This document shows, one piece after another, positions 530 to 19,570 of a DNA stretch of 49,431 nt (position 1 is its first letter; the number at the start of each line of letters is the position of its first letter). Below the pieces are notes generated by a model. The model did no database searches, was not told the origin of the DNA, and saw only the letters and a program-made list of their open reading frames with translations. The stretch lies in the IMG/VR virus record IMGVR_UViG_3300007754_000481, positions 1-49,431 of that record; one strand, written 5' to 3'. Source of the DNA: a virus. The position numbers and the translations under genes are program-made.

Positions 530-1120
530 CTAGCTATTCGCGACGAGCCTCATCCGGCCGGAGCCTGGGTAGAAGACACCGGCTCCCATTGACCGGAACC
601 GTCCGATCCCGGTGTTCTGGATGTGGAGGGACTGTTCGGGGGTGAGCCCGGCGAGGGTGACGGAGTAGCCCAGGAAGACCCTGCCCTTGCAGTGGAGCCC
701 GCGGCGTCGTCCGGTGGAGACCTGGACCTCGGGGCCCACGATCTGCTGGACTTCCTCCCGAAACTTGGCCTCGTTGACGATGTTGTCGAACACGACCTGT
801 CGCGAGACGAGGTGCGGGGAGGGGGTGAGGGTGACGGGGACGGCCTTCCCCAGCCCGATCATCTGTCCGCTGGCGAGGATCCATGAGCTGCCGATCGCCT
901 CCGCGGCCTCAGCCGGGAGGCCCCGGATGTGGAGGACGGAGTTGTGATCGAGCTGGATGGACCTGCCGTGGTCCCTCCTGGTTCCGCGGACGGGGGCGAT
1001 CTGGTAGTGCCCCCGGGCGTGGAGGAAGGGGAACTTCCGGCAGAGGGCGGACATGATGATGTAGCCGTTGTCCTGGGGCAGCTTCGCCCGGGACTCGATC
1101 GCGTAGGAGTAAGCGGTCAT
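530..1120 (-). CDS. cas6: Cas6 crRNA-processing endoribonuclease (Cmx6-like)
   Basis: Predicted to cut pre-crRNA at the base of the repeat hairpin, leaving 8-nt 5' handles. The 196-aa protein has the RAMP plan: an N-terminal stretch with a YIIMSALCRKFPFLH segment (residues 20-34), SVLHIRG (61-67), an SRQVVF strand, and the C-terminal glycine-rich loop GIGRFRSMGAGVFYP (171-185). This pattern matches the Cas6/Cmx6 family of Myxococcus-type systems as I know it. H34 and H38 are candidate catalytic histidines. I start at ATG 1120 because it overlaps the cas5 stop as ATGA, as cas5 does with cas7; an in-frame ATG at 1132 would add MDDP. It is the last cas gene before leader and array 1. Confidence 0.9.
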   Translation of the reverse strand: MTAYSYAIESRAKLPQDNGYIIMSALCRKFPFLHARGHYQIAPVRGTRRDHGRSIQLDHNSVLHIRGLPAEAAEAIGSSWILASGQMIGLGKAVPVTLTPSPHLVSRQVVFDNIVNEAKFREEVQQIVGPEVQVSTGRRRGLHCKGRVFLGYSVTLAGLTPEQSLHIQNTGIGRFRSMGAGVFYPGSGRMRLVANS

Positions 1121-1710
1121 CGGGTCATCCATGCGGGGTTCTTGGTGATCCGGAGGTCGAACCCTTTGAGGGTGGGTCCGTAGTTCCGGTAGCCGTAGAG
1201 GGTCTTGACAGGGAGCTGCATCTGGCTTCCGGGGACGAGCCACTGGACCTTGTCCAGGGGGTCGTCGGTCTCTCCGATCCAGGTGATGAGATCCTGGCTC
1301 TCTCCGAGATAGAGGACGCCGAAGAAGTCGTCTCGGCCCTTCTCCAGGGTCTCTCGGATCTTGTCTTCCCAGGGGCCGCGGACCTGGACGCAGTGGGAGA
1401 GGTCGTACCACTTCTCGACGTGGACGGGCCTCATGACTTCGTAGTCGTTCGGGGCCCTCTGCTGGTCCTTCTTCTTGCTCGCCCAGATCTGGGCCTGACG
1501 GAGGAGGGTCCCCCATCCGCCTGGGGGGCGGAACGCCCCGTAGCGGAACTCACCTCGGAAGGAGCCCTTCCGGGAGGCTGTGAAGGCTTCCAGGCACCCC
1601 TGCATGGTGGAGGGGGGGCAGAAGGGGTAGGAGGGGACCAGGGCGAGGAGGGGGATCTGGCCCGGAATCCGGAAGTGTCCGGAGATGGAGTCGATCCTGA
1701 GGGTAATCAT
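1117..1710 (-). CDS. cas5: Cas5, Cascade crRNA 5'-handle-binding subunit
   Basis: Expected to cap the 5' handle of the crRNA in Cascade. The 197-aa protein opens with the Cas5 signature: a beta strand, FRIPG (13-17), then SYPFCPPSTMQGCLEAF (27-43), matching the family pattern 'YPFPPPSTLLGLL'. The C-terminal part has the strand-rich look of a RAMP fold. Its ATG overlaps the cas7 stop as ATGA (1707-1710) and its own stop overlaps the cas6 start the same way, so cas7-cas5-cas6 are probably translationally coupled. The length is at the short end for Cas5. In this branch Cas6 rather than Cas5 is expected to process crRNA. Confidence 0.88.
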   Translation of the reverse strand: MITLRIDSISGHFRIPGQIPLLALVPSYPFCPPSTMQGCLEAFTASRKGSFRGEFRYGAFRPPGGWGTLLRQAQIWASKKKDQQRAPNDYEVMRPVHVEKWYDLSHCVQVRGPWEDKIRETLEKGRDDFFGVLYLGESQDLITWIGETDDPLDKVQWLVPGSQMQLPVKTLYGYRNYGPTLKGFDLRITKNPAWMTR

Positions 1711-2600
1711 CCCATCTTCCCGCGGATCTCGGAGAGGATCGAGGCGATCCCGTCGTGGACGGTCTGGTCCAGACCCATGCCGGCGACGTTGTAGGAGATC
1801 CCCAGGTTGGCTGCGCGGGCCTCCAGGGCGGAGAGGTCCACGGGGGTGTCGGGCTGCTGGTCGAGGATCAGGCCCATCCCTCCCTGTCCGGGGGACTTGT
1901 GGAACCTCCAGGCGATCGTGTTGCAGATCATGGAAGCCGACCGGGAGCTGTGGGCTCCCCCGACCTGGAGGCAGCGGAGGGAGTTGATGACCGCCTCCAC
2001 GGCGTCGCCCATGCCCTTGAGGCGGGCGAGGTTGAAGGTCATGGTGAAGGCGTAGCGGGTCCAGTGCCGCTCAAAGTGGAAGGGGGCGAGGGAGGGCTTC
2101 GGGGTGGTGTCCTTCTTCTTCCGGTTGCCGCCGTCGTCCTCGTCGTTCTCGTAGACGGTCGCCCCGGCCTTGTGCCCCTGGCAGAAGGCGATGTTGTTGT
2201 CGAAGGCGGAGCAGGAGATGGCGTCCGACACCTCCACGAGGCCCTTGGCCTTCATGGCGTGCTCGGAGGAACCCTTGCTGGAGATCATCCAGCCGAAGAT
2301 GCCGTCGTCGAACCCCTCGGGGGTGGGCGGGATGGCTTCCTTCATGGTGCTCGCCCGGTTTTCGCCGTAGACGAACCCCACGGGGTTCAGATCGGTGACG
2401 GGGACGATGTTCCGCCACATACGGCAGCCCCCGTCCTGCATGGAGTGGCGGACGGCGAACTTGATCGCCGGGCCGGAGAGGACAGTCCGGGTCTGGTTCC
2501 GGCAGGTGATCGTCTGGACGGTCTGGAGGTTGCCGCGGTTCTCACCGCGGTTGTTGGAGGCGAGCAGGGGCTCAGAGATGGCGAGGAGAGTCAGGTACAT
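1707..2600 (-). CDS. cas7: Cas7, Cascade backbone subunit (DevR/Cst2-like)
   Basis: Forms the helical backbone that holds the crRNA spacer. The 297-aa protein begins with strand MYLTLLAISEPL and then LLASNNRGENRGNLQTVQTI (12-31), followed by SGPAIKFAVRHSM. The SNNRGE...GN...Q...SGxAIKFALR pattern is typical of DevR/Cst2-type Cas7. I start at ATG 2600: it follows the cas8 stop by 41 nt and begins the conserved strand, whereas upstream in-frame codons lie inside cas8 and read through the tandem repeat at 2610-2641. No strong Shine-Dalgarno is visible, only GAGA nearby, which is odd for the most abundant Cascade subunit. Confidence 0.9.
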   Translation of the reverse strand: MYLTLLAISEPLLASNNRGENRGNLQTVQTITCRNQTRTVLSGPAIKFAVRHSMQDGGCRMWRNIVPVTDLNPVGFVYGENRASTMKEAIPPTPEGFDDGIFGWMISSKGSSEHAMKAKGLVEVSDAISCSAFDNNIAFCQGHKAGATVYENDEDDGGNRKKKDTTPKPSLAPFHFERHWTRYAFTMTFNLARLKGMGDAVEAVINSLRCLQVGGAHSSRSASMICNTIAWRFHKSPGQGGMGLILDQQPDTPVDLSALEARAANLGISYNVAGMGLDQTVHDGIASILSEIRGKMG

Positions 2601-2609
2601 TGTGGTCTC

Positions 2610-2641
2610 TGGTTGGTTGCTGGTTGGTTGCTGGTTGGTTG
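2610..2641 (-). repeat. Three tandem 11-bp units between cas8 and cas7
   Basis: TGGTTGGTTGC is repeated almost three times with an 11-bp period. In the transcript it reads as CAACCAACCAG units, unstructured and CA-rich, filling nearly all of the 41-nt cas8-cas7 gap and starting right after the cas8 stop codon. It may act as a translational enhancer or spacer for cas7, or be slippage-generated. Confidence 0.85.
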
Positions 2642-4324
2642 TCAGGCGGCTTCGCTGTTCTGGTGGCTGTCCAGATCTTCCCCGCAGTCGAGGCAGAGGC
2701 GACCGGCCTCTCGCTCCTTGAGGAGGCGGGCCTTCTCCCTCTTGGCGTCGTCCGCCTTCCGCATCGCCGGGGAGCGGAAGTCCACGTCGCAGGACAGGAT
2801 GAGGAGCTGCTGGATCTCGGTGGGGTTGCGGTCGAGGGCGGCGATCAGCCAGTCGAACTCTTCCCCGGTGAGGCGGAGGCTCCCGCCAGCCTCGTTGGAG
2901 ATGGCGTTGATGGCGGCGAGGATGCCGGCCTTGTTGTGAGCCCGGTTGAGGTGGACGGCTACGGCGAACTGCTTCGCCCGCTCCCACATCCTCTGCTTCG
3001 TGCCGAACTTCTTCCGGTAGTGCTGGGCGAGCTGGTAGTACAGGGTCTTCATCTTCGCGGCGATGATTCGCTGCATGAGTCCTTCCTCGTTGTCGGGGAA
3101 CAGGTGGTGACCGACCTGCTGGATGCGGGCGCGGTCGCGTTCGTTGAAGCCCACGAAGGACTTCATCTTGGGGCTGTAGCGGTACCGGTCGTTGGTCATG
3201 CCGTCAGCGACGCCCATGAACCAGGGCAGGCCGACCCGAAGGTTGTTGAAAATCACGTCGTGGAGCGTGTCATTCCGTGTGGGGGACAGTGTCCGGATGG
3301 GGGTGCTCTTCATAGAGCGGAGCATGTCGTTTCCCGCCCCTGCGCTGAACTCCAAGAGGTCCCGGAGCATCTGGTAGATCTGGTTGTTCTCCACCTTCGC
3401 GGCGTGGGGCAGGAAGGACCCCGCCGCGACCTTCCCCCCATCGGTCTTGTAGAGGTAGGGGTAGGGCTGCCGCGGCAGGTTCATCACTGCCGCCATCGTC
3501 CAGCAGACAGCTTCTCGGGCTCCTGCGATCCGATGGACCTTGCCCTGGTCTCCGTTCCAGTGGCGGAACGCCTCTTCAGCCTGGGAGAACGTTGGGAGAT
3601 CGAGCCCGATCCCTACGGCGTCGCAGTCGCTCATTGTCCAGACGTAGGCGAGGCAGGAGAACGAAGTCAGGAAGTATTCCTGAAGGGTCAACTTCAGGGC
3701 TTCCTTGTTCCACTGGCCCAGGATGGGGTGGGAATAGGTCGATCCGGTGTATCGATCGACCGGGATCCGGCCCTTTCGCTTGGTGTCCTTCCACTTGAGG
3801 ACCGCGGGCTTCCCCGTCGTGTGGGGGGTTACGGCCAGCTCGTAGGGGGTGCCGTCTGCCCTCTTGACGCAGTCCGCCTTGCGGATCGGCTCTCCGAACT
3901 TCTGGACGTGAGCGGCGAGGAGGGCCGCCTTCTGTTGCTTGGCTGCCGGGGTGGTCCCTGGGGTCAGGGAGACAGATCGGGTAGGTCCCTTTCGCCCCTG
4001 GAAGTACCCGAGCCCCAGGTGGGCTCGGATCGTCATGTAGATGCCGGGGTTTTCCCGGTTCGTCTCGGCTCCCGGGGGGACGCGGAGGCCCGTGGACATG
4101 TCGCCCACCATGTCCGCGATCAGAGGGTTGAGGCTGTCGATATCCTTGAAGCGGAGGTCCAGGGTCTCATCGTCCAGGAACGACCACTGGAGATCCTCCG
4201 ACTGGCGGACGGCGGGGTACATGGGGTTGCCTTCGCACTGACTCAGCAGTCGGGCGAGTCCGTGGAGCCCAAGGCGAAGAGGGGTGGACGAAAGCTCGGA
4301 GAGCTTCAGGAGCCATCGGTTCAT
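2642..4324 (-). CDS. cas8: Cas8 large Cascade subunit (Cmx8/Cas8a1-like)
   Basis: Expected to recognise the PAM, unwind DNA and recruit Cas3. The 560-aa protein begins with a helix reading LLKLSELSSTPLRLGLHGLA (5-24), close to the N-terminal 'LPTAQHRAGLAGL' signature of Myxococcus-type Cas8. Position between cas3 and cas7 supports the call, since Cas8 proteins diverge rapidly. The C-terminal 50 residues hold a Lys/Glu/Arg-rich helix and one CxxC (CLDC), which may be half of a zinc site. I prefer ATG 4324 over the TTG directly before it. Its Shine-Dalgarno lies in a small hairpin at 4327-4339. Confidence 0.8.
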   Translation of the reverse strand: MNRWLLKLSELSSTPLRLGLHGLARLLSQCEGNPMYPAVRQSEDLQWSFLDDETLDLRFKDIDSLNPLIADMVGDMSTGLRVPPGAETNRENPGIYMTIRAHLGLGYFQGRKGPTRSVSLTPGTTPAAKQQKAALLAAHVQKFGEPIRKADCVKRADGTPYELAVTPHTTGKPAVLKWKDTKRKGRIPVDRYTGSTYSHPILGQWNKEALKLTLQEYFLTSFSCLAYVWTMSDCDAVGIGLDLPTFSQAEEAFRHWNGDQGKVHRIAGAREAVCWTMAAVMNLPRQPYPYLYKTDGGKVAAGSFLPHAAKVENNQIYQMLRDLLEFSAGAGNDMLRSMKSTPIRTLSPTRNDTLHDVIFNNLRVGLPWFMGVADGMTNDRYRYSPKMKSFVGFNERDRARIQQVGHHLFPDNEEGLMQRIIAAKMKTLYYQLAQHYRKKFGTKQRMWERAKQFAVAVHLNRAHNKAGILAAINAISNEAGGSLRLTGEEFDWLIAALDRNPTEIQQLLILSCDVDFRSPAMRKADDAKREKARLLKEREAGRLCLDCGEDLDSHQNSEAA

Positions 4325-4326
4325 CA

Positions 4327-4339
4327 AGAGGTGTCCTCT
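4327..4339 (-). promoter_or_regulatory. Hairpin masking the cas8 ribosome binding site
   Basis: On the minus strand AGAGG-ACA-CCTCT directly precedes the cas8 start region. The AGAGG is the only Shine-Dalgarno-like sequence there and can pair with CCTCT, which could limit cas8 translation unless ribosomes arriving from cas3 disrupt it. The stem is only 5 bp. Confidence 0.4.
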
Positions 4340-4400
4340 CTGGGTGCCCCTGTTGATACCGTAATTTCTGTTTTATGGGTAGCCTCGTAGGGAAACTTTT

Positions 4401-6809
4401 TCAGGAAGGTAGAAAACCAAGCCTGATATCGTAGGTTCCAATAGAGGAATCGACGACCAGAATTTTTCTGTGCGTCCGGCCGAGGGTTTCCAGGTAGGTC
4501 TTCTGGTCTGGTCGGAGCAGAATGGGGATGGTGAGGTGTTTGGTTTCCTCGTGATCCGGTAGCTTCTGGGCGTCTTCCGGGAGCAGGACTCGGGTGGTGT
4601 AGTCGGCGTCTCGGATCCGTCGATTTGAGGTCACCAGGAGACTGGAAAATGCGTCGCGCTGACGTGGGAAGTTCCTTGGATCTCTGTAGAAATCCAGCAG
4701 TGCTTCGTTGAGTTCGTCTTGGGAGACAGCGAGCCCGTCGAATTGTCCTATCCAGCCTCTCCAGAGGTTGAATGTGGGGAGCCAGTCGTCGTGAGCGACG
4801 TAGGGGAGCCCGTTGTCTGCCTGGGGCATGTAGAAAAAGACGTCCACGGGTCCCGTGAAGTCGTGCCGATTAGAACGACCGAGCCTCTGCGTCATGGAGC
4901 TGGGTGTGGAAATCTCAGAAAGCAAGGAGAGAGCTGATATATCCCGAGCTACCTCGGCAACCTGGGTCGTCGTGACCCGTCTTTTGTTGAGGAGATCCTG
5001 TTTGATCCTATCGCTGATCCCTCTGCGATCCCGGTCTCGGAAGCGGCTGTGGTAGACGAGGGCGTCGGGTGCCGTGATCCCGACCTGCTGGCAGCGGGCG
5101 ACGGTGTTGGTGAACCAGAGGGTCCCGGCGTGGAATTGCTGGAAGGCCTCTTTCGGACCTTTGAGGATGTGGATTCGGTATCGCGGTTTGTTGGAGGCCC
5201 GGTCAGGGTTCGTAGATGATCCCATGATGGTGGGGGCTCGCAGGGTGGGCCGGAGTCGGTCGAGCAGGTATTCGGGGAAGGTGGCTGAGAGAAACGCCTT
5301 GCGGTTCTGGGGGAACCAGTTGAGAAATCGAATCAGCCATGCCCGGGTGACGGGGTCATAGTTCTCCACTTCATCGAAGACGATCTGGCTCTTCAAGATC
5401 CAGGGGAGGTAGGCAATCGCGGAGCGTCGGAAGGCGATGAGCCCGAGCACCTGATCGATGGTGGCGAAGGTGAGGTCTCGTGATCCCTGTCGAATTCGGT
5501 GGAGGGTGTCCCGAGCTTCCCTCCTGGCGTCCGCTTCTTCTTGGGAGTTGTCTTCAGGGGTGGGGGTGTATTTGAGCAGCACCTCCCCTGCTCGGGAGTG
5601 CCGTAGGGTGTCCATCCCTTTTCGGGCGTAGTCGAGGAAGTGGTGGGTTCCGATATCCATCGTGGGGGTGCAGAAGATCATGGGGTTTTTCGGGTGACCC
5701 GAGCCCCATTGCAGAGCCCCCAGGGTCTTCCCGACCCCTGTCGCCCAGGGGAGGAAGAGGTCTCTCCCTGGTCGGAGACAGTTTTTCTGAGTGGGGGTCA
5801 GGCTCCCCTCTGGGCCTAGCCTCTGTCGGAGGATGGCTCCGAAGTCCACTTCTCGCGTGGCCCAGGTCTCGCGAATGACGCTCAGGATGGCGTCTTTCGT
5901 TTTCCGATAGGACCGATCATCCCCGGAGGCGTGGATTGATCCCAGGGTATCCGCCAGGATCGTCAGCCACTTGATCGCCCCGGAGATCGGGTCATCCTCG
6001 ATCCGATAGAAGAGGTCGTTTACTGATATCGACTGGAGCCCCTGCTCCAGTCGCCTGGGGGTCGTGAAATGGTTCCCGCCCGGCAGGTGTGGGAGATCGG
6101 GGAAGGCCGGCACCGCGAGGTCTCGGAATCCTTCAGGCAAGCTGCGGAGGACCGTGTTCATGTCACGGGCGAGCTTGTCCTGGTAGACCGGGAGCGTCTT
6201 GTATCTCCCGCGGGCCAGGATCTCTTGGGTGCTGATCGGCCGGTGGCACTTGAGGTGATGCCCGAACGCCCCGGCCAGGGCGTAGGCGAAGCCTTGCTCT
6301 CCACCCGCGATTTGAACCACCCAGGACCGGAGGGGCTCTTGATTCATCATGAGGGCGGACAGTAGCTCGTGCCGGTATGCCTGTACGTGCTTCCTGTAGC
6401 CGCTCATCCGTCTTTTCAGGCGGAGGTACCGCCGCTCCTCTTCTGGAAGCTTGAACCCGCCCTCAGGGCCCCTGAAGCTCTTGTAGGCCAGCTCCAGCCC
6501 GACCAGCATCTCTTGAAACTCTCCCCCTGCCTTCCCGAAGTCGTGACCGAGCAGGGAGAGGAGCGTCCACGCTTTGAAGTCTCGGAAGGAGCACGGCAAC
6601 TCCATCCTGGCGTGGACAGCATGGGCGAGGGAGGGATACTCCCTCTCAGCCCAATAGGGCTCGGTGAACAGCACTCCGAGGGCCCACAGGACTTCCTTGT
6701 AGTGCCAAACGAAGTTGAACCCCCGTCCGGGGCTGAAGTCCTCTCGTTCTCGTCGCCACTTGGCGAGGAGTGGACGCCGACTCAGATAGTCTTCGACAGG
6801 ACTCAGCAC
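4401..6809 (-). CDS. cas3: Cas3 HD nuclease-helicase
   Basis: Expected to be recruited by target-bound Cascade to unwind and degrade DNA. The 802-aa protein has an N-terminal HD nuclease domain: GHDFGK with H89-D90, then YRHELLSALM (145-154), GHH (183-185) and ADTLGS with D287. An SF2 helicase follows: Walker A ATGVGKT (356-362), TIDQ (450-453), Walker B FDEVENYD (478-485), SAT (508-510), the TTTQVAEVARDI motif V region (613-624) and QRLGRSNR (641-648). Motif II reads DEVE rather than the usual DExH. The start is GTG 6809, overlapping the end of orf105 by 7 nt. A 76-nt gap separates the stop from the cas8 start and may hold a weak internal promoter. Confidence 0.95.
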   Translation of the reverse strand: MLSPVEDYLSRRPLLAKWRREREDFSPGRGFNFVWHYKEVLWALGVLFTEPYWAEREYPSLAHAVHARMELPCSFRDFKAWTLLSLLGHDFGKAGGEFQEMLVGLELAYKSFRGPEGGFKLPEEERRYLRLKRRMSGYRKHVQAYRHELLSALMMNQEPLRSWVVQIAGGEQGFAYALAGAFGHHLKCHRPISTQEILARGRYKTLPVYQDKLARDMNTVLRSLPEGFRDLAVPAFPDLPHLPGGNHFTTPRRLEQGLQSISVNDLFYRIEDDPISGAIKWLTILADTLGSIHASGDDRSYRKTKDAILSVIRETWATREVDFGAILRQRLGPEGSLTPTQKNCLRPGRDLFLPWATGVGKTLGALQWGSGHPKNPMIFCTPTMDIGTHHFLDYARKGMDTLRHSRAGEVLLKYTPTPEDNSQEEADARREARDTLHRIRQGSRDLTFATIDQVLGLIAFRRSAIAYLPWILKSQIVFDEVENYDPVTRAWLIRFLNWFPQNRKAFLSATFPEYLLDRLRPTLRAPTIMGSSTNPDRASNKPRYRIHILKGPKEAFQQFHAGTLWFTNTVARCQQVGITAPDALVYHSRFRDRDRRGISDRIKQDLLNKRRVTTTQVAEVARDISALSLLSEISTPSSMTQRLGRSNRHDFTGPVDVFFYMPQADNGLPYVAHDDWLPTFNLWRGWIGQFDGLAVSQDELNEALLDFYRDPRNFPRQRDAFSSLLVTSNRRIRDADYTTRVLLPEDAQKLPDHEETKHLTIPILLRPDQKTYLETLGRTHRKILVVDSSIGTYDIRLGFLPS

Positions 6810-7120: not shown

Positions 7121-7139
7121 GATTCAACCTCCGTCGTCG

Positions 7140-7166
7140 TATACGACCCTCCCGCAGGAAATTACC
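7140..7166 (-). promoter_or_regulatory. Promoter of orf105-cas operon (GGTAA/CGTATA class)
   Basis: On the minus strand GGTAATTTCC begins 21 nt upstream of CGTATA. The element occurs upstream of several genes with the same spacing. TATA end to ATG is about 20 nt and includes GGAGG. The -10 lies in the palindrome GTCGTATACGAC (7136-7147). Confidence 0.7.
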
Positions 7167-8077: not shown

Positions 8078-8593
8078 TCAGAATCGGGTGGCGGGGAGGG
8101 CGGACAACTCCTGGCTCATGTCGTCGATCCACTTCCCGTCTTCCACGAAGATCTCGCCCCTGCCCACGCGGACGGTAGCCTCCTTCAGGGTCTTCCCGAG
8201 ATTCCAGAGGAAGTGCCGAACGCCCTGCCAGGAGAGGCGGATCCGGATCGCGTCGGAGTCGTGGAGGTGGTTGTACCCGCTCGCAAACGTGGTGTTGTCG
8301 TCGTCGAACGGGATCACCCGCTTCAACTCCTCCAGGGGGAAAGTCCCCTTGGTGTTGCGGACCCGGATGAGCAAGACGCTGGGGTCGTAGATCGGAGACC
8401 CCCTGCGGGGACCGAGGGTGTGCCGTGCGACCTGGACCTCGACGGACCAGAGGCGGCCCTCGTCTCCAAAAGCGATCATGGAGATCGCCGGGTCGGGATC
8501 CGCGACCACCACTCGGTGATCCCCGACGTGGGAGGTGTGCAGGACTCCCGTGTCAAAGACACGGAGAGCTGTTGAACTTTTCCGCCGACCCAT
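8078..8593 (-). CDS. orf171, unrecognised protein
   Basis: A 171-aa protein with a basic N terminus (MGRRKSST) followed by alternating strands and short helices; no catalytic motif recognised. GGAGG lies 6 nt before ATG 8593, and a GGTAAC/CGTATA promoter lies just upstream (8615-8641). Single-gene transcript on the minus strand. Confidence 0.8.
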   Translation of the reverse strand: MGRRKSSTALRVFDTGVLHTSHVGDHRVVVADPDPAISMIAFGDEGRLWSVEVQVARHTLGPRRGSPIYDPSVLLIRVRNTKGTFPLEELKRVIPFDDDNTTFASGYNHLHDSDAIRIRLSWQGVRHFLWNLGKTLKEATVRVGRGEIFVEDGKWIDDMSQELSALPATRF

Positions 8594-8614
8594 CAGATCC
8601 TCCAGTTAGGAGAC

Positions 8615-8641
8615 TATACGACCATCCCCCAAAAAGTTACC
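8615..8641 (-). promoter_or_regulatory. Promoter of orf171 (GGTAA/CGTATA class)
   Basis: On the minus strand GGTAACTTTTT starts 21 nt before CGTATA, followed after about 20 nt by GGAGG and ATG. The same T-run with the neighbouring AAAAAG could also form a weak hairpin after the stop codon of orf248. Confidence 0.75.
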
Positions 8642-11922: not shown

Positions 11923-11938
11923 CTATAGAGGCCCTATC
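11923..11938 (-). promoter_or_regulatory. Promoter of the GNAT-like gene (GNTAG-N5-CTATAG class)
   Basis: On the minus strand GATAG, 5 nt, CTATAG. It overlaps the stop codon of orf66, so the promoter is embedded at the end of the upstream gene. Confidence 0.65.
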
Positions 11939-12134
11939 GGAGAGCAGCCTCTCGGGTCTCCCTGGGGTTCTCTGCGAGGGCTCGGCAGTAAGCCGCGTAG
12001 GCCAACAGGCTCTCGCGGGTGATCCCTCGCTCAGGGAAGAAGGGGCCTTCTGCGGCTTGACGCTCTGCGTGTCTCGCGTCCGCGAGCTGGTCGGCTACCC
12101 AGGCAGCGTCCAGCTCCTCTTCCGTGTACTTCAT
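11934..12134 (-). CDS. orf66, unrecognised small helical protein
   Basis: A 66-aa, Ala/Glu/Arg-rich, almost wholly helical protein (MKYTEEELDAAWVADQL...). No family recognised. Its Shine-Dalgarno (GAGG, 7 nt before ATG 12134) lies inside a degenerate CRISPR repeat, so its translation may depend on whether Cas6 or Cascade occupies that sequence. It is last in the probable transcript orf103-orf115-crRNA-like element-orf66. Confidence 0.75.
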   Translation of the reverse strand: MKYTEEELDAAWVADQLADARHAERQAAEGPFFPERGITRESLLAYAAYCRALAENPRETREAALR

Positions 12135-12138
12135 GGGT

Positions 12139-12200
12139 CATCCTCAAGGGTAAGCAGGTATTGATTTGGGTCGCGTGGCCGATTGGCTCTTGCCATCCTC
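12139..12200 (-). ncRNA. crRNA-like element: degenerate repeat, short spacer, degenerate repeat
   Basis: Read on the minus strand: GAGGATGGCAAG (12200-12189) equals the last 12 nt of the array 2 repeat including the full 8-nt handle. Then come 21 nt of unique sequence (12188-12168, beginning AGCCAATCGG). A second degenerate repeat follows from 12167, in which TCAATACCTGC and TACCC match the array 1 repeat before the hairpin region decays. The plus-strand core GGGTAAGCAGGTATTGA matches array 1 at 16 of 17 positions. Real spacers here are 37-41 nt, so this one is about half length. The arrangement resembles CreA/CreR-type crRNA-like RNAs known from other type I systems, whose short pseudo-spacers guide Cascade to repress promoters. 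Target not identified. Confidence 0.7.
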
Positions 12201-12211
12201 TCGTTGTCTTC

Positions 12212-12559
12212 TCAGGGCAGCAGACACCCCCTGGTCGGGGTGAGCCGACCTCGGCGGGTGAGGTTCTTCGTCGCCAGATCGCGATACCAGCCCTTCAGCT
12301 TGCCCCGACACTTCACGGTGTCGAAGACCGCGGAAGCGGCGAGGCTCTTTCGCTCGCCGTTCTGGCGGAGAGCCAGGGCGAGGTAGGCGGGCCGGTCGGG
12401 GTGGTCCGTGTTGGTCATCCGAATCCACCGATCTTCCGCGTTCGCCCGCTCCTGTCCGGAGATGTGGGCGTAGCGACCTTTGCCGTCCATCCCGGAGGTG
12501 AAGACCGCTAGGGTGATCCTGGCGGTGCGGAAAGCTCGGTTGAATTCCTGACGGTCCAT
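12212..12559 (-). CDS. orf115, unrecognised protein
   Basis: A 115-aa basic protein (MDRQEFNRAFRTARITL...) with a likely strand block LAVFTSGMDGKGRYAHI and a basic C terminus. No motif recognised. I choose ATG 12559 because it follows the orf103 stop by 8 nt; longer in-frame readings run antisense-like through orf103. Its stop lies 12 nt from the crRNA-like element. Confidence 0.7.
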   Translation of the reverse strand: MDRQEFNRAFRTARITLAVFTSGMDGKGRYAHISGQERANAEDRWIRMTNTDHPDRPAYLALALRQNGERKSLAASAVFDTVKCRGKLKGWYRDLATKNLTRRGRLTPTRGCLLP

Positions 12560-12567
12560 CGTAGCCC

Positions 12568-12879
12568 TCACTTGTACCAGATCCCGAAGGACCAGGAGTT
12601 GTTGTTCTCGATGTAGAGGTTCGGGTCGGTCTCCGCGAGCGTCGCGTTGATACGATCCTGGGCCTGCTGGCCCGCCCCGAAGTCGCCCTCGCAGGAGAGC
12701 AGGTCGTACCCCGCCCCGTCGTAGGTCACGAGCAGGTAGGTCCCCTTGTCCGTGACGCGAGTGTCCGCGTAGGGATCCTCGCCCTCCCACTTGGTCCCCT
12801 CGTAAACCTCCTTGTGCAGGTCGCGCCCGCGCTTCAGCTCGACCGCCGCTCTCGCTGCTCTCTTGTTCTGGGCCGACAT
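12568..12879 (-). CDS. orf103, unrecognised protein
   Basis: A 103-aa protein: a basic N-terminal helix, then a strand-rich half (TRVTDKGTYLLVTYDGAGYD) and a C terminus with ENNNSWSFGIWYK. No family recognised. AGGAGG precedes ATG 12879 and the promoter at 12902-12928 lies just upstream, making it first in the transcript that includes orf115 and the crRNA-like element. Confidence 0.8.
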   Translation of the reverse strand: MSAQNKRAARAAVELKRGRDLHKEVYEGTKWEGEDPYADTRVTDKGTYLLVTYDGAGYDLLSCEGDFGAGQQAQDRINATLAETDPNLYIENNNSWSFGIWYK

Positions 12880-12901
12880 GCTGTACCTCCTGTTGTAGAG
12901 G

Positions 12902-12928
12902 TATACGAGTACCCTCAGAAAAGTTACC
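12902..12928 (-). promoter_or_regulatory. Promoter of orf103 operon (GGTAA/CGTATA class)
   Basis: On the minus strand GGTAACTTTTC begins 21 nt before CGTATA, followed by AGGAGG and ATG. It abuts the stop codon of the CYTH gene. Confidence 0.75.
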
Positions 12929-12931
12929 CTC

Positions 12932-13426
12932 TTATAGAGAGATTTTCCCTGCTCCGGGTCTCATTAGGTGCCGAGAGAGTTGGGCGTTGGAGTAGGCGGG
13001 GTCGTCAGTGATCTCCTTGCCGAACCACTCGGGGACGGAGACTTCCTCATCTTCGGAGTCCAGTTCAACTTCCGCGATGACGAGCCCCTGGTGTTCTCCA
13101 TGGAAGAAGTCCACGTCGAAATCGTGATCCCCGAATCGCATCTTGTATCGGGTCTTCTCGATCAGCTTGGAGATTCGTAGCTTCAGCAGATCTTCTGCGT
13201 CCGCCCTGGGGATCTCGTACTCGAATTCAGGAGCGGCGGCTCCTGTCTTCTTCCCCTTGATCGTGAGGGTGCCCACGGCGTCCACTCCGCCGTAGTGGGT
13301 GACCCGAACGCGGACGGTTCTCCTTGGGTCGAGGGACAGGTAGCCCTGCTTGATGGAGACCCCAGGGACTCGGGGCTGGGCGAAGGGCTCCTCGATGAGG
13401 AAGCGGCGTTCAATCTCGGTTGGCAT
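12932..13426 (-). CDS. CYTH-domain triphosphate tunnel enzyme
   Basis: A 164-aa protein with the CYTH signature: EIERRFL at residues 4-10 (ExExR/K), TVRVR, TIKG, EYEIP, KTRYKM, DVDFFHG and the closing LVIAEVELDSEDE. These acidic and basic strands line the triphosphate-binding tunnel. Most bacterial relatives hydrolyse inorganic triphosphate; others make cAMP or cleave thiamine triphosphate, so the substrate is uncertain. Length is normal for a stand-alone CYTH protein. ATG 13426 has only AAGG upstream. CTATAG at 13461-13466 is palindromic and may serve both this gene and asnB. Confidence 0.88.
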   Translation of the reverse strand: MPTEIERRFLIEEPFAQPRVPGVSIKQGYLSLDPRRTVRVRVTHYGGVDAVGTLTIKGKKTGAAAPEFEYEIPRADAEDLLKLRISKLIEKTRYKMRFGDHDFDVDFFHGEHQGLVIAEVELDSEDEEVSVPEWFGKEITDDPAYSNAQLSRHLMRPGAGKISL

Positions 13427-13503: not shown

Positions 13504-15135
13504 ATGTGCGGCATCCTATCGGTCACAGGTTTTGATCCTTCTCAACAGGCTGAGAGAGCTTCTGAGCTACATCGGCGTCTCGGGCGACTCCAACATCGGG
13601 GGCCGGACTTCACGGGGACCTGGGAGGCTCCTGGGGCGGTTCTAGGGCATACGAGGCTGGCGATTGTTGATCCCACGAGCGGGGCTCAACCTCTGGTGAG
13701 CCCTGACGGCAAGCTGGTGTTGATCGCCAACGGTGAGATCTATAACCACGATGTTTACCGGACACGGCTCGCTCAGGATTACGACTTCCAGACGCGCTCA
13801 GATTGCGAGGTGATTCTTCCCCTATACCTCCGCTACGGGGAGGACTGCGTGAAGCACCTGGACGGGCAATTCGCCTTCGTCCTCTACGATGGGCGAGATG
13901 GGTCGGTGTTCGCAGCCAGGGACCATATGGGGATCGTCCCGTTGTACTGGAGTCAGACGGCTGACGGCGTGTGGTTCAGCTCGGAGATGAAAGCCCTCCC
14001 TTCAGGCTCCATCCAGGTGTTTCCTCCCGGACATTACTATTGTCAGAGCCAGATATCCCGTTGGTGGGAGCCCTCCTGGTTTACTCAGATGCCGGGGTAT
14101 ACGGGTCAGGGCCCTAGCCGAATGGTGCTGGAACACCTTGCGGTTAAGTTGAGGGCCTCTGTCGGGAAGCGGCTCATGGCGGACGTTCCCTGGGGAGTCC
14201 TTCTCTCTGGTGGTTTGGACTCTTCACTGGTGGCGGCTTTGGCAAACCGACCCGGGATGAAATCCTTCTCCATTGGCCTTGAGGGGTCTCCGGACCTCGC
14301 GGCGGCGGCCGTAGTAGCGAAGCACCTGGGGTCAGACCACCATGCCTTCACGTACACGGTGGAAGAGGGGATCGCAGCCCTGGAAGCCGTGATCCGAAGC
14401 ATCGAGACTTACGACGTCACGACGATCCGGGCTTCGACTCCAATGTTCTTGATGGCGAGGGAGATTCGGAAGCTCGGGGTCAAGATGGTCCTGAGCGGTG
14501 AGGGGGCTGATGAGATCTTCGGAGGCTACCTGTACTTCCACAAGGCCCCGAGTCGGGAGGAGTTTCACTGCGAGACGGTCAGGAAGCTTCAGACGCTTCA
14601 CCTGTATGATTGTCTCCGAGCCAACAAGAGCATGATGGCGTGGGGGGTGGAAGCCCGGGTGCCCTTCCTGGACCGGGCGTTTCTCGATCTGGCGATGGGG
14701 TTGGACCCGGCCTACAAAATGTCGAGTACGAGCCCCCACGGGGCTCGCATGGAGAAACACCTCCTCAGATCTGCTTTTGAGGGGCAAGGGTTGATCCCTG
14801 ATGAAGTGCTCTGGCGTCAGAAGGAGCAGTTTAGCGACGGGGTCGGCTATAGCTGGATCGACAGCTTGAAGGAGGTCGCGGACCAGCAGGTGTCTGACGA
14901 GGACTTCCAGCAGGCGGCGAGCCGCTGGCCGGTCAACACTCCTGCGACCAAGGAGGCATACTTCTACCGCTCCATCTTTCAGAAGGAGTTTCCCTCGGAG
15001 GACGCCGCGAAGACGGTCCCTGGAGGCCCCAGCGTTGCCTGTAGCACGCCGACAGCACTCGCCTGGGATAAGTCCTTCCGGGAGGCCGCGGACCCGTCAG
15101 GGAGGGCTGTAGGCGTTCACAGGGACGCCTACTAG
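13504..15135 (+). CDS. asnB: Asparagine synthetase, glutamine-hydrolysing
   Basis: Makes asparagine from aspartate, ATP and glutamine-derived ammonia. The 543-aa protein is full length for AsnB. N-terminal glutaminase: catalytic Cys2 (MCGI), R51 in HTRLAI, and NGE (76-78). C-terminal synthetase: PP-loop SGGLDSS (235-241) and GEGADEIFGGY. Both active sites look intact. It is transcribed alone on the plus strand, and its stop codon overlaps that of the convergent beta-helix gene. Phage-encoded AsnB could supply asparagine during virion protein synthesis or make amides on another acceptor; related amidotransferases cannot be excluded from motifs. Confidence 0.93.
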   Translation: MCGILSVTGFDPSQQAERASELHRRLGRLQHRGPDFTGTWEAPGAVLGHTRLAIVDPTSGAQPLVSPDGKLVLIANGEIYNHDVYRTRLAQDYDFQTRSDCEVILPLYLRYGEDCVKHLDGQFAFVLYDGRDGSVFAARDHMGIVPLYWSQTADGVWFSSEMKALPSGSIQVFPPGHYYCQSQISRWWEPSWFTQMPGYTGQGPSRMVLEHLAVKLRASVGKRLMADVPWGVLLSGGLDSSLVAALANRPGMKSFSIGLEGSPDLAAAAVVAKHLGSDHHAFTYTVEEGIAALEAVIRSIETYDVTTIRASTPMFLMAREIRKLGVKMVLSGEGADEIFGGYLYFHKAPSREEFHCETVRKLQTLHLYDCLRANKSMMAWGVEARVPFLDRAFLDLAMGLDPAYKMSSTSPHGARMEKHLLRSAFEGQGLIPDEVLWRQKEQFSDGVGYSWIDSLKEVADQQVSDEDFQQAASRWPVNTPATKEAYFYRSIFQKEFPSEDAAKTVPGGPSVACSTPTALAWDKSFREAADPSGRAVGVHRDAY

Positions 15136-15680: not shown

Positions 15681-16829
15681 TTACTCCAGGGTCGCGAGGA
15701 TGCGATCGACCAGGGCGATCTTCCCGCCGCGGATCTTGGAAGCCCCGACGATCGTCAGGTCGTGCCTCGCGTACTTCCGGAGGTGCTGGAGGTTCTTCGT
15801 CAGGAGCACGTCCCGATCCCGGATCTCACGGAGATAGGCCCACACCGGCTCCTCCTCTTCCGGCGGAGCGGGGAGGGGGTGGGTGACCGTCGCGGCCCCC
15901 ACCTGCTCCACCGTGGGAGCCGGGGTGGAGTCACCGAGTGCGGCCTCCAGGGAAGCCAGGGGCTCGTCCAGCTCATCCTCGTCTTCGTCCGAGTCGAGGA
16001 GGTAGCCGTCGTCGTAGTCATCATCCCCCAGCTCTGGATCGAAGCCCTCCTCTTCGGGCTCGCCGGGCCCCGCCGGAGTGCTCAGGCTCTCGATCTCCGG
16101 GATCTCCTCGGAGGGCTGGAACAGATCGTCCAGCTTGTCGCCATAGTTCCCGACCACCTTGTAGGCGCAGAGTCGCATCTTCCGGTGGCTCGCGTCGTAG
16201 GGGACGCAGACCACGTTCTCGGGATCCACTTCGCAGATCACGACCCTGCCCTGAGCGAACCCCTGGGCGTAGGACAGATCCCCGACATGGAGCCCCTCAT
16301 GACAGGGGGTCCGGGGATCATCCGAGACCCGGTTGCGGGGGTAGGTCACCTCCGCCCCCGGGCGGTTGGAGATCTTCCCCGTGTGGCAGTCGGTGTAGTC
16401 CGCCTTGACACCCTTGTAGGCGAGGAAGGTCCCCCTCTTCGTGATCGGAATCCCGCAGTGCTGAAGGAAGGTGAAGAGCTGCTGGACGGACCTGTAGGAG
16501 GGGTTCCGGCTGAGCCGCTGGATGAAGCGGAACATGGGGTCGATGCAGGTCCCCTGCCCCATCATGGCTACGATCCGCTTGTTGAGGTCAGCGGGGATAG
16601 GGTAGCCCTGGTACTGGATGTGGTTGTCCTTCATCTTGAAGCCAGCCATCGCCGCCCAATGGGCGATCTTCGCGGCGGGGGACAGCAGATCCTTGATACC
16701 ATCCCACTTCTTCTCCAGAACCATCCGGCAAGCCCGATCGTAGTCCGGGTTCTCCTTCAAGACCGTGAAGGTCTCACCGTTGTCCAGGGTTACCGTCAGC
16801 GAGGCGTCTCTCAGAGAGTAGTAAGGCAT
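15681..16829 (-). CDS. rIIB: rIIB-like protein
   Basis: The 382-aa protein matches T4 rIIB in its conserved core: CGIPITKRGTFLAYKGVK (125-142), DYTDCHTGKISNRPG (144-158), CHEGLHVG (176-183) and VVICEVDPENVVCVPYD (about 196-212). T4 rIIA and rIIB together overcome RexAB exclusion and associate with membrane and DNA, mechanism unresolved. Here the N terminus is about 100 residues and a long acidic linker (Asp/Glu-rich, about 240-320) precedes a C-terminal helical segment resembling a short SAP/HTH-like tail. Its ATG overlaps the rIIA stop as TGATG. Confidence 0.9.
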   Translation of the reverse strand: MPYYSLRDASLTVTLDNGETFTVLKENPDYDRACRMVLEKKWDGIKDLLSPAAKIAHWAAMAGFKMKDNHIQYQGYPIPADLNKRIVAMMGQGTCIDPMFRFIQRLSRNPSYRSVQQLFTFLQHCGIPITKRGTFLAYKGVKADYTDCHTGKISNRPGAEVTYPRNRVSDDPRTPCHEGLHVGDLSYAQGFAQGRVVICEVDPENVVCVPYDASHRKMRLCAYKVVGNYGDKLDDLFQPSEEIPEIESLSTPAGPGEPEEEGFDPELGDDDYDDGYLLDSDEDEDELDEPLASLEAALGDSTPAPTVEQVGAATVTHPLPAPPEEEEPVWAYLREIRDRDVLLTKNLQHLRKYARHDLTIVGASKIRGGKIALVDRILATLE

Positions 16830-18982
16830 CAGGAATCCTTGTTGTCCATCAGGGTGATGTACTCCATCCAGGGCTCCGGGTTCTGAGCGATGACCTTGAG
16901 GTCACTCCGGATGGCGAGGAGGGGGTACTGAATGAGAATCTTGCGGAGCTTGGCGTGGTGAGGGTAGTTGCGAACAAGCTTACGACCCTCCTTGGTGTGT
17001 TGGTACAGCATCACGAGCCTGTTTACCTGCTGCTTCTCTGCCGCGGGCAGAGCCTTCCACAGGTCGTAGTCGTCGAGGATGAGGCGACAGTAGCGGGCGA
17101 TGGTGTGACGCTGCCCGACAGGATGCTCCTTGAACAGCTCTCGGACCGCCCGGAAATGCTTCCTCTGCCACCGGAAGAGTTCCCCCACCCGCCGGGCTCG
17201 GCACAGATCGGAGATGTTGTCAGGGGCTTCAGACTCCAGAAAGTCTGTCATCCATTTCTGGAGGTCTACCCCTTGACACTGCTCCACGACCATTTCAATC
17301 GTCACCGGATCCCGGTCCAGCGTCTTCATCCCGTAGATAGGGGTGGGCGACCGACCAGCCGCCATCTCGATGGACCTGATGGCTCGGATGATACTGTAGA
17401 AGTTGCTCCCGAAGCCGCGGGGGTAGAAGTGGCTCAGGACCACCGCGATACTCCCCGGCTCGATATCGTCCAGGTCTTCGACGATGCTCCAGTTGGCAGA
17501 TCGGCTCCGGCCCGGGTCATGGGTGCTGGTGAGCTTGAACCAGCGAGCCTTGTGCTTCGGGTTGAAGGTCCGGGAGGTGGCAGACCGCGTCTTGGGGATC
17601 CTCTTCATCTCCGAGGTCCGAAGGATCGGGATGCCCTCCAACCCCTTCAGGCGGAGACGCTCCTGAAGCTCCGCCTGGACGTCCAGAAGAGAGTAGCCCT
17701 TGGCGACGATGACGACCCTCTCCGGGGTGCCGGTGTCCACGAAGCGGGACACCGGCTTGAGGCTGTCGTGGACGATGATCCGAGTCATCTCCCCGATCCG
17801 GATCTTGAAGTCATCCGACAGCGTGATGGAGTTGCGGTACCTCCCGCCTTGTAGCTTCCGGAGGTGGAACGTCTTGGGCTTGTCGTAGGTGACCTTCCCG
17901 TCCGTCAGGACCGGCTCCCCGTCGTTGTTGATGACTTCACCCGTGAACATCTTCACGATAGGACTATTCAGCCCGTCAGCCTCCTCAGGCCACGGGAGAG
18001 CCCCCGCTTGTGACTTCCACTGGAGGAGGTTCAGCCGCCGCTCCCAGGGAGATCGAGAGGTGTCCAGGGCGATCTCCCTGGCCTCCCCCACGAAGTGCAT
18101 GAGGGTATCCCAGGCGGCCCGGCGGATCCGCTTCCGGGTCTTCTTCGTGAACTTCAACCCTTCCCGGTTCGGGGCAATGTCCACCTCCCCGATGGTGAAC
18201 ATGAACACGCCCGAGGACATTCGGATGGAGGTCTCCAGTCGGGGACCCACGATCCCAGCGAGTAGCTCTCGGTCGATCACATAGGGGACACCACCCATCA
18301 CCGCGAGCCACTCCGGCTCCTCAGGGAGGATCGCCCCCAGGTCGCTGGTGAGCCCCGTCACGGGCTCGGGGAGATCGATGTTGATCTCCGGCTGGGGGTT
18401 CACCCAGCGGAAGAGGAAGCAAGCCTCTCGGTGGAAGTGCGGGACCTCTTCCTGAGGGACCGTCGCTCGGATCTCCAGACCCGTCTCATCCTCGCAGGGG
18501 GACTCATGGACTTTGTCCAACATCCCCATGTCCGACTCGTCGAGGTAGGCGATATAGACGGTCTTCACCCCGTTGAACCAGGAAGTGACCTGGAAGGAGT
18601 CTGTCAGCGAGAACGCCGCCTTGCTCCCGATGCCCATCATCCCGTGCTGGTCGTTCGTCTCTCGCTTCGTGCTCGCCCCGTACTGAGAAAACACGGCGTA
18701 CATGTTCTCCTCAGACAACCCCGGACCCCAATCCCGGACCACCATGATCGGGGAGATCTCCGTGGGGAGGACGACCTTGACCGGACGATCAGGAATACCC
18801 GCCTCCACATGAGCGTCAGCTCCATTGGAGTGGTACTCCCGCAGCAAGGCCCGAGCCTTGTTCGAGTACAGGTCGCGGAGGAGCGACGCCACATAGGCGA
18901 GGTTCTCCCGAGAGATGCCGAAAGCCCCGCGGCGAAGGGGAGGTGAGGTTTCAGCGTGTCGTCGAATGTTCTCAGGAATCAA
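16829..18982 (-). CDS. rIIA: rIIA-like GHKL ATPase
   Basis: A 717-aa protein with a GHKL ATPase domain: N box EYHSNGADAH (49-58), G1 box DWGPGL (84-89) and G2 box GMMGIGSKAAF (114-124), followed by a transducer-like region, as in T4 rIIA. The long C-terminal part is basic and helical. I choose TTG 18982: it lies 25 nt after the CGTATA box at 19007-19012 and 8 nt after GAGGG. Longer readings would start upstream of or within the promoter. It is directly followed by rIIB, as in T4. Its promoter abuts the decayed end of CRISPR array 2. Confidence 0.88.
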   Translation of the reverse strand: MIPENIRRHAETSPPLRRGAFGISRENLAYVASLLRDLYSNKARALLREYHSNGADAHVEAGIPDRPVKVVLPTEISPIMVVRDWGPGLSEENMYAVFSQYGASTKRETNDQHGMMGIGSKAAFSLTDSFQVTSWFNGVKTVYIAYLDESDMGMLDKVHESPCEDETGLEIRATVPQEEVPHFHREACFLFRWVNPQPEINIDLPEPVTGLTSDLGAILPEEPEWLAVMGGVPYVIDRELLAGIVGPRLETSIRMSSGVFMFTIGEVDIAPNREGLKFTKKTRKRIRRAAWDTLMHFVGEAREIALDTSRSPWERRLNLLQWKSQAGALPWPEEADGLNSPIVKMFTGEVINNDGEPVLTDGKVTYDKPKTFHLRKLQGGRYRNSITLSDDFKIRIGEMTRIIVHDSLKPVSRFVDTGTPERVVIVAKGYSLLDVQAELQERLRLKGLEGIPILRTSEMKRIPKTRSATSRTFNPKHKARWFKLTSTHDPGRSRSANWSIVEDLDDIEPGSIAVVLSHFYPRGFGSNFYSIIRAIRSIEMAAGRSPTPIYGMKTLDRDPVTIEMVVEQCQGVDLQKWMTDFLESEAPDNISDLCRARRVGELFRWQRKHFRAVRELFKEHPVGQRHTIARYCRLILDDYDLWKALPAAEKQQVNRLVMLYQHTKEGRKLVRNYPHHAKLRKILIQYPLLAIRSDLKVIAQNPEPWMEYITLMDNKDS

Positions 18983-19006
18983 TGGGCCAGCCCTCGTGTC
19001 CCCCCC

Positions 19007-19033
19007 TATACGCCCCGCCCTCAAAAAGTTACC
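19007..19033 (-). promoter_or_regulatory. Promoter of rIIA-rIIB operon (GGTAA/CGTATA class)
   Basis: On the minus strand GGTAACTTTTT begins 21 nt before CGTATA. It follows the last decayed repeat of array 2 by only about 4 nt. Confidence 0.75.
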
Positions 19034-19037
19034 GCTA

Positions 19038-19073
19038 TTCCCATCCTCTGAAGAGGTCAACAGGCAACGGAGA
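19038..19073 (-). repeat. Strongly decayed CRISPR repeat next to rIIA promoter
   Basis: Ungapped alignment to the array 2 repeat gives 23 matches in 36, and 21 in the first 27 plus-strand positions. The minus strand reads GACCTCTTCAGAGGATGGGAA against GACCTCCTAGGAGGATGGCAA in the array, so the hairpin is kept with compensating change (CCTCT/AGAGG). It marks the leader-distal end of array 2. Confidence 0.6.
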
Positions 19074-19104
19074 TAGCCTCTCGATCGACCCTATCTCCGT
19101 TGCC
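19063..19104 (-). terminator. 14-bp hairpin at the leader-distal end of array 2
   Basis: GGCAACGGAGATAG (19063-19076) and CTATCTCCGTTGCC (19091-19104) are perfect complements around a 14-nt loop. The element lies between two degenerate repeats and would end the pre-crRNA transcript before the rIIA promoter. No clear U-tract follows, so another structural role is possible. Confidence 0.55.
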
Positions 19105-19108
19105 TTCC

Positions 19109-19371
19109 CTTCCCATCCTAGGAGGTCGGCAGGTATTGAGACGGCCTGTCAAGAGCGGGAAGTCCCGGGATGCTTGGACCTCTTGCCATCCTCCTAGGAG
19201 GTCGGCAGGTATTGAGACCATCGTGCTATTCCCGGGGATCACCACCTCATCGAGCACTTGCCATCCTCCTAGGAGGTCGGCAGGTATTGAGACCTCCTCC
19301 TTAACCACGTCTTCGGTGATCCCAGGCCGGGAGTCTTGCCATCCTCCTAGGAGGTCGGCAGGTATTGAGAC
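19109..19371 (-). CRISPR. CRISPR array 2: one degenerate and three good repeats, three spacers
   Basis: Repeats of 37 nt lie at 19182-19218, 19257-19293 and 19335-19371. A degenerate copy at 19109-19142 lacks 3 nt in the hairpin; a further decayed copy lies at 19038-19073. Spacers are 19143-19181, 19219-19256 and 19294-19334 (39, 38, 41 nt). The repeat shares both ends with array 1 but its hairpin is CCTC-CTAG-GAGG, then 8 nt ATGGCAAG on the minus strand. Degenerate repeats on the left and the shared leader on the right set the direction. No cas gene adjoins it; Cas6 of the operon could process it. Confidence 0.96.
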
Positions 19372-19570
19372 CCTGGGTTCTCTCGATCTGCTTAAATAGC
19401 GGATCGAGAGGGTAGTTTTCGAGCGGGTTACTTATGCACAGGGTTATCCACAGGTTGTGGACGCCTCCGGGGCTGTCAAAGATCTCAATTCTCAAAGGAA
19501 TCTGGAGGTTTACCCTGCCTGCGAGCGCCCCCTGGGGTTTTGTCGCCTCGGGACCGCTCGCGGGAGGTTT
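19372..19570 (-). promoter_or_regulatory. Leader of CRISPR array 2
   Basis: It lies between the array and the DUF262 gene and has no supported gene. It shares with leader 1 the palindrome (19380-19410), GTTTTCGAGCGG, the double DnaA box plus GGTTGTGGA, GGGGCT, and an imperfect GCGAGCG...CCGCTCGC hairpin (19521-19561). Overall layout and length (199 versus 200 nt) are the same, indicating duplication of a leader-array unit. Confidence 0.8.
19432..19452 (+). promoter_or_regulatory. Two DnaA boxes in leader 2
   Basis: TTATGCACA (19432-19440) and TTATCCACA (19444-19452), 3 bp apart, identical in sequence and spacing to leader 1 and flanked by the same GGTTGTGGA. Confidence 0.65.

Follow-up and report, generated by a model that had tools for sequence, protein, structure and literature searches.

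A CRISPR-like element with a short spacer, resembling CreA/CreR guides, in a small-gene operon of a probable huge phage

The stretch of DNA analyzed here (the window) is a virus record of 49,431 bases. It very probably derives from the larger genome of a huge phage, since its tail genes match those of the 485-kb uncultured phage LR745208.1, with their order mostly kept, and 78 relatives of one of them occur in records as long as 619 kb. The minus strand carries a cas operon (530–6809) that best matches type I-B models and comprises cas3 (4401–6809), a cas8 candidate assigned by position only (2642–4327), cas7 (1707–2600), cas5 (1117–1710), and cas6 (530–1123). Two CRISPR arrays are likewise read on the minus strand and have nearly identical leaders: array 1 (1–330; repeat GTCTCAATACCTGCCTACCCCTAGAGGGATGGCAAC), which continues past the window edge, and array 2 (19036–19372; repeat GTCTCAATACCTGCCGACCTCCTAGGAGGATGGCAAG), which contains a degenerate repeat at 19138 and, toward the trailer, another at 19069. 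In the fold of the array repeat, UGCC pairs with GGCA and CCC with GGG, the two stems being separated by a 2x2 internal loop. A gene for an RIIA-like lysis inhibitor protein (phrog_612; 16829–19060) adjoins array 2.

Some kilobases away, three small genes lie in a row on the same strand: orf103 (12568–12879), the first gene in the operon and without a family match; orf115 (12212–12559; stop codon 12214–12212); and orf66 (11934–12134), which encodes a 66-residue protein from a start codon at 12134. The sequence-only reading had placed the element described below in one transcript with orf103 and orf115, and a promoter-like motif (GGTAACTTTTCTGAGGGTACTCGTATAC, 12928–12901) that precedes the operon fits that proposal. 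This 28-nt motif, GGTAACTTTT..CGTATA, occurs on the minus strand at 7139–7166, 8614–8641, 12901–12928, and 19006–19033. The first genes of the cas operon and the orf103 operon and the gene at 8078–8593 each start about 20 nt downstream of a copy, and the motif is also found upstream of the RIIA-like gene. A promoter dedicated to the element was not found at the locus. The neighborhood also holds a gene for a CYTH-domain protein (12932–13426) beside one whose product, read by eye, is a candidate glutamine-hydrolysing asparagine synthase (13504–15135).

The element occupies the gap between orf115 and orf66, in the orientation of both genes. Reading along the minus strand, GAGG (12200–12197) is followed by the sequence ATGGCAAG (12196–12189), which is identical to the 5'-handle of array 2, then by a pseudo-spacer of 21 nt (AGCCAATCGGCCACGCGACCC, 12188–12168), by AAA in place of GTC, and by TCAATACCTGCTTACCC (12164–12148). 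GAGG and the handle together (GAGGATGGCAAG) match the end of the array-2 repeat at 12 of 12 positions, while TCAATACCTGCTTACCC matches the 5' part of the array-1 repeat at 16 of 17, so both likenesses, first reported from the letters alone, hold at these coordinates. The spacer is indeed about half the usual length, 21 nt vs 37–41 nt in the arrays of the window. Two pseudo-repeats can thus be delimited. Pseudo-repeat 1 (12189–12232) has a degenerate 5' part that overlaps the end of orf115 and an intact handle; pseudo-repeat 2 (12134–12167) has a perfect 5' core, CAATACCTGCTTACC, and a degenerate 3' part, CTTGAGGATGACCCA. The usual length of a 5' handle is 8 nt, and from this length a Cas6 cut is predicted between GAGG and ATGGCAAG. 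With its 21-nt spacer, degenerate repeats, and lack of a leader, the element does not have the makeup of a functional array; array 2, the nearest array in this contig, is 7 kb away.

Could such likenesses arise by chance? A weight matrix was trained on 23 repeats of a single other viral contig, G001, and so independently of this phage. Under this model the core at 12163 scores 26.5 bits, which is the maximum attainable and exceeds the scores of this phage's own arrays. Shuffled windows peak at 12.5 +/- 2.6 bits (best of 60: 19.7), and the best score in 1.9 Mb of related huge phages is 16.9. Similarly, the consensus CAATACCTGCYNACC has no exact match, and a single match with one mismatch, in 50 related records (~7.1 Mb). 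A chance origin of the core was rejected on the strength of these three comparisons. The handle taken alone is not significant (15.5 vs shuffle maxima of 14.5 +/- 1.3, with a chance match of 15.4 at +36791); about one chance occurrence is expected in the window, and its weight therefore comes from its position 21 nt from the core. Both repeat-derived parts are real, as are their order, strand, and spacing, and the core is not a product of chance.

These figures bear on the plainest alternative, an ordinary 21-codon open reading frame (MARANRPRDPNQYLLTLEDDP, 12131–12196) in which the handle match is simply a start-codon region and the likeness to repeats is coincidental. The frame does begin at the ATG at 12196, stay open, and overlap orf66 by ATGA. 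Its purine tract directly abuts the ATG with zero spacing, leaving no Shine-Dalgarno at a working distance, the product has no family match, and coincidence would have to yield a maximum-scoring 15-nt core; we give this explanation a slim chance. The status of orf66 itself is different: a homologue in L153, a contig of an unrelated phage, is 62% identical over residues 1–47, and no such element was found upstream of it. On this comparison orf66 is a real gene, whose relatives need no element of this kind.

The wear of the two pseudo-repeats is reciprocal. The first retains the handle (12/12 of the 3' end), whereas the second retains the 5' part bound by Cas6 (16/17) and has lost the handle, which matches at only ~4/8. 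Pseudo-repeat 2 is longer than the 17-nt half initially recognized, extending to GAGGATG, and a degenerate G001 unit is its closest relative (24/26). Its hairpin is lost (-2.2 kcal/mol). Pseudo-repeat 1 was examined with a two-block weight matrix and a pairing test, which place a weak full repeat upstream of the handle, TGCT-GC-CCT..14 nt..AGG-AT-GGCA, in the two-stem layout of the array repeat: TGCT (12222–12219) faces GGCA (12194–12191) and CCT (12216–12214) faces AGG (12199–12197) across a 14-nt loop. The upstream core match is weak (p ~0.10), and the two-stem layout, with a chance of ~0.015 (~1.5% of comparable places), is suggestive only because it was looked for after the fact. A Cas6 stem-loop is plausible, by predicted folding, for pseudo-repeat 1 and not for pseudo-repeat 2; processing at both ends by Cas6, and hence at the 3' end of the element, is doubtful since the second repeat has no stable hairpin.

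Pseudo-repeat 2 has a second occupant. As the sequence-only reading had it, the Shine-Dalgarno of orf66, GAGG (12142–12145), lies within the element; more precisely, it falls in this repeat, 7 nt 5' of the ATG. An element acting solely in cis is thereby conceivable, with Cas6 or Cascade binding the mRNA and blocking or cutting the orf66 leader and with no guide acting in trans. A predicted cut between GAGG and ATGACCC would separate the Shine-Dalgarno from the ATG, and solitary repeats in G001, described below, also lie in sense in other transcripts. That pseudo-repeat 2 is unstructured speaks against such a switch, as does the composition of the element, for a lone Cas6 site needs neither an upstream handle nor a short spacer. 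We judge a purely cis-acting role very unlikely.

The wider family of this repeat offers a context for its degenerate state. Among viral contigs, the family was found only in G001, G002, and G003, which have the leader in common, and in a short contig, L044, that carries part of the G001 cluster; a looser repeat pattern returned only chance matches beyond G001–G003. G001 and G002 contain an identical cluster of ~28 units on the minus strand (L021 13700–15800 and L029 4200–6350, respectively). On the leader side, repeats are 36 nt and spacers close to 40 nt long; the other units have degenerate repeats with mostly short spacers of 20–30 nt, the median over all non-canonical units being 26 nt vs 39. 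Some units are diverged duplicates of one another, and all keep an invariant core, CTGC..CC. Across 23/23 G001 repeats, seven of the 15 core positions never vary, whereas the copies of a duplicated spacer segment agree at only 24/32; the degenerate units therefore look selected. Selection on the repeat core is the simple reading of these alignments, and gene conversion may be an alternative source of the invariance. G001 also has two solitary repeats on the minus strand (L020 12619 and 15560), each immediately following a tRNA-Leu gene in sense orientation. Both are preceded by a shared 30-nt sequence and have a different but paired hairpin, CCCUCUAUAGGG; within a tRNA transcript they might act as Cas6 sites or as Racr-like RNAs. 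Given the cluster and the solitary repeats, degenerate units with short spacers appear to be normal for this family. The core-to-core distance in our element, ~66 nt, agrees with that in the degenerate G001 units, mostly 53–78 nt. Neither cas6 nor cas3 was found in G001–G003; all three are fragments, and the genes may be located in another part of the same genomes or be carried by a host. The three contigs cover other genome segments and not the orf115–orf66 locus.

The main rival explanation draws on this same family. The element may be a relic, a unit of a former degenerate array that was left stranded between orf115 and orf66, with its 3' end since co-opted as the ribosome-binding site of orf66 and with no present role alongside Cas proteins. 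Degenerate units are common in G001 and G002, the hairpin of pseudo-repeat 2 is gone, no target has been found, and the orf66 homologue in L153 manages without the element. Simple decay sits poorly with a 15-nt core that is perfect amid drift elsewhere in both repeats, and with losses that are reciprocal and not random. We place this account on the unlikely side, though above the other alternatives considered here.

The seed of the pseudo-spacer (nt 1–5 and 7–11) has no 10/10 site in the window other than itself, and 9/10 sites occur at about the number expected by chance; the search for seed matches, especially in promoters, that had been suggested from the sequence thus returned nothing above chance in the window or in G001–G003. 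No seed match lies near the promoter-like motif of the cas operon (7139–7166), and no creT-like target was found. Protospacers for the 34 spacers and the pseudo-spacer were sought in 2.4 Mb of sequence with no convincing result, so no PAM was derived. Array 1 had no match among plasmids and named phages. Searches of viral contigs returned no relatives of cas6, cas8, or orf115 (the cas6 search had no positive control, though the same model detects the window's cas6), and no second genome with the element's locus. A genome scan for a host bearing the repeat gave two chance matches only, both in protein genes.

That outcome weighs on a further possibility, namely that the element is an RNA anti-CRISPR (Racr) tying up Cas6 and Cas7, whether those of a host or of competing phages. 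Phage-borne Racrs imitate CRISPR repeats and can be cotranscribed with small acr genes (PMC10651486), and orf66, orf103, and orf115 are small; a repeat mimic in a phage operon of small genes is what we observe. Unlike a Racr, for which no partial repeat lies within 100 bp (PMC10651486), the element has a second repeat part 21 nt away and a spacer between the two, and is not truly a solitary unit. A Racr would also hit its own bearer, whose CRISPR system uses these very repeats, and no host with them was found. A Racr is scarcely probable here, and the description fits the tRNA-linked repeats of G001 better.

The closest published counterparts are the two-psiR creA genes of type I-B CreTA in Halobacterium hubeiense and other haloarchaea. 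There psiR1 keeps the Cas5-binding handle, psiR2 loses the handle and keeps more of the rest, and processing of the psiRs yields a crRNA-like RNA whose 5' handle is 8 nt long (PMC9458426, PMC8501985). The element similarly has two divergent repeats around a spacer-like sequence (the 5' half of the first being weak), the same division of what is kept and lost (12/12 and 16/17, with the second handle at ~4/8; PMC9458426), and matching type I-B cas genes in the same genome. Because type I-B creA genes wear reciprocally in this way, the comparison is stronger than when a CreA/CreR-type layout was first proposed. The rest of the likeness is incomplete: unlike creA, the element lies inside a phage mRNA and not beside cas genes, its spacer is only 21 nt, its second repeat has no hairpin and doubles as a ribosome-binding site, and neither a creT-like target nor a seed match to a nearby promoter was found for it in the window. 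With CreR, the crRNA-like autorepressor of cas operons, it has in common a predicted crRNA-like RNA with no evident toxin partner and a promoter-like motif also found before the cas operon; it differs in that its pseudo-spacer does not match the cas promoter region. Degenerate units at the trailer end of CRISPR arrays, as in G001 and G002, resemble it in repeat wear and irregular spacer length, whereas the element is set between two genes far from any array in the contig.

We therefore favor, at a probability of about 0.4, an ectopic minimal CRISPR that resembles CreA/CreR and belongs to the phage's own type I-B system, reciprocally worn as creA is and possibly coupled to orf66. We infer the following course, from transcription through cutting and assembly to repression. 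Transcription would start from the promoter-like motif, which the operon has in common with the cas operon, and would take in orf103, orf115, and orf66 along with the element. Cas6 would recognize pseudo-repeat 1 and cut between GAGG and AUGGCAAG, releasing an RNA that starts with a normal 5' handle, which Cas5/Cas8 could hold while Cascade assembles on the short guide. A site with a partial match could be bound by this complex and repressed in the manner of CreA/CreR; for full interference the complex would be poorly suited. Numbered from the handle, nt 52–55 form the orf66 Shine-Dalgarno and nt 63 begins its start codon. As both fall within the released RNA, and a complex on that RNA would cover the start, guide production and orf66 translation would be mutually exclusive on one transcript, and the level of Cas6/Cascade would therefore also tune orf66. 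This minimal-CRISPR reading is supported by the top possible score of the core in an independent model, the handle 21 nt off on the same strand, the reciprocal wear, the two-stem pseudo-repeat 1, the selected-looking units of G001 and G002, the ~66-nt core distance, and the motif common to the cas operon. Against it stand the lack of a target, of a stable hairpin in pseudo-repeat 2, of its own promoter, and of a second genome with the locus, as well as the weak 5' half of pseudo-repeat 1.

The element is really present and resembles guides that direct CRISPR complexes to binding without cleavage; its functional role is putative. In the literature consulted, CreA/CreR guides come from bacteria and archaea, and the phage examples are solitary repeats (Racrs). 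If the minimal-CRISPR reading is true, a crRNA-like unit in an operon of a Cascade-encoding phage extends CRISPR-based gene regulation to phage genomes. A broader conjecture, distinctly unlikely as matters stand, is that this lineage of huge phages operates a second, non-immune layer on top of its own type I-B system, in which degenerate repeats and short guides would direct Cascade or Cas6 in the regulation of phage and host genes, from the 28-unit array of G001 and G002 and from single units in operons and tRNA clusters, with the orf66 unit setting guide release against downstream translation. Whether short guides are regulators or products of decay is made directly testable by the related short-spacer array.

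The arrays of the window have features of their own. On the trailer side of array 2 (19036–19108), the extra degenerate repeat at minus 19069 reads CGTTGCCTGTTGACCTCTTCAGAGGATGGGAAT, and the last spacer forms a 14-bp inverted repeat with it, GGCAACGGAGATAG/CTATCTCCGTTGCC. The leaders (340–430 and 19382–19470) contain the DnaA-box-like sequences TTATCCACA and TTATGCACA and, immediately 5' of the first repeat, the hairpin CTCTCGATCCGCTATTTAAGCGGATCGAGAG; both features are kept in G001 and G003.
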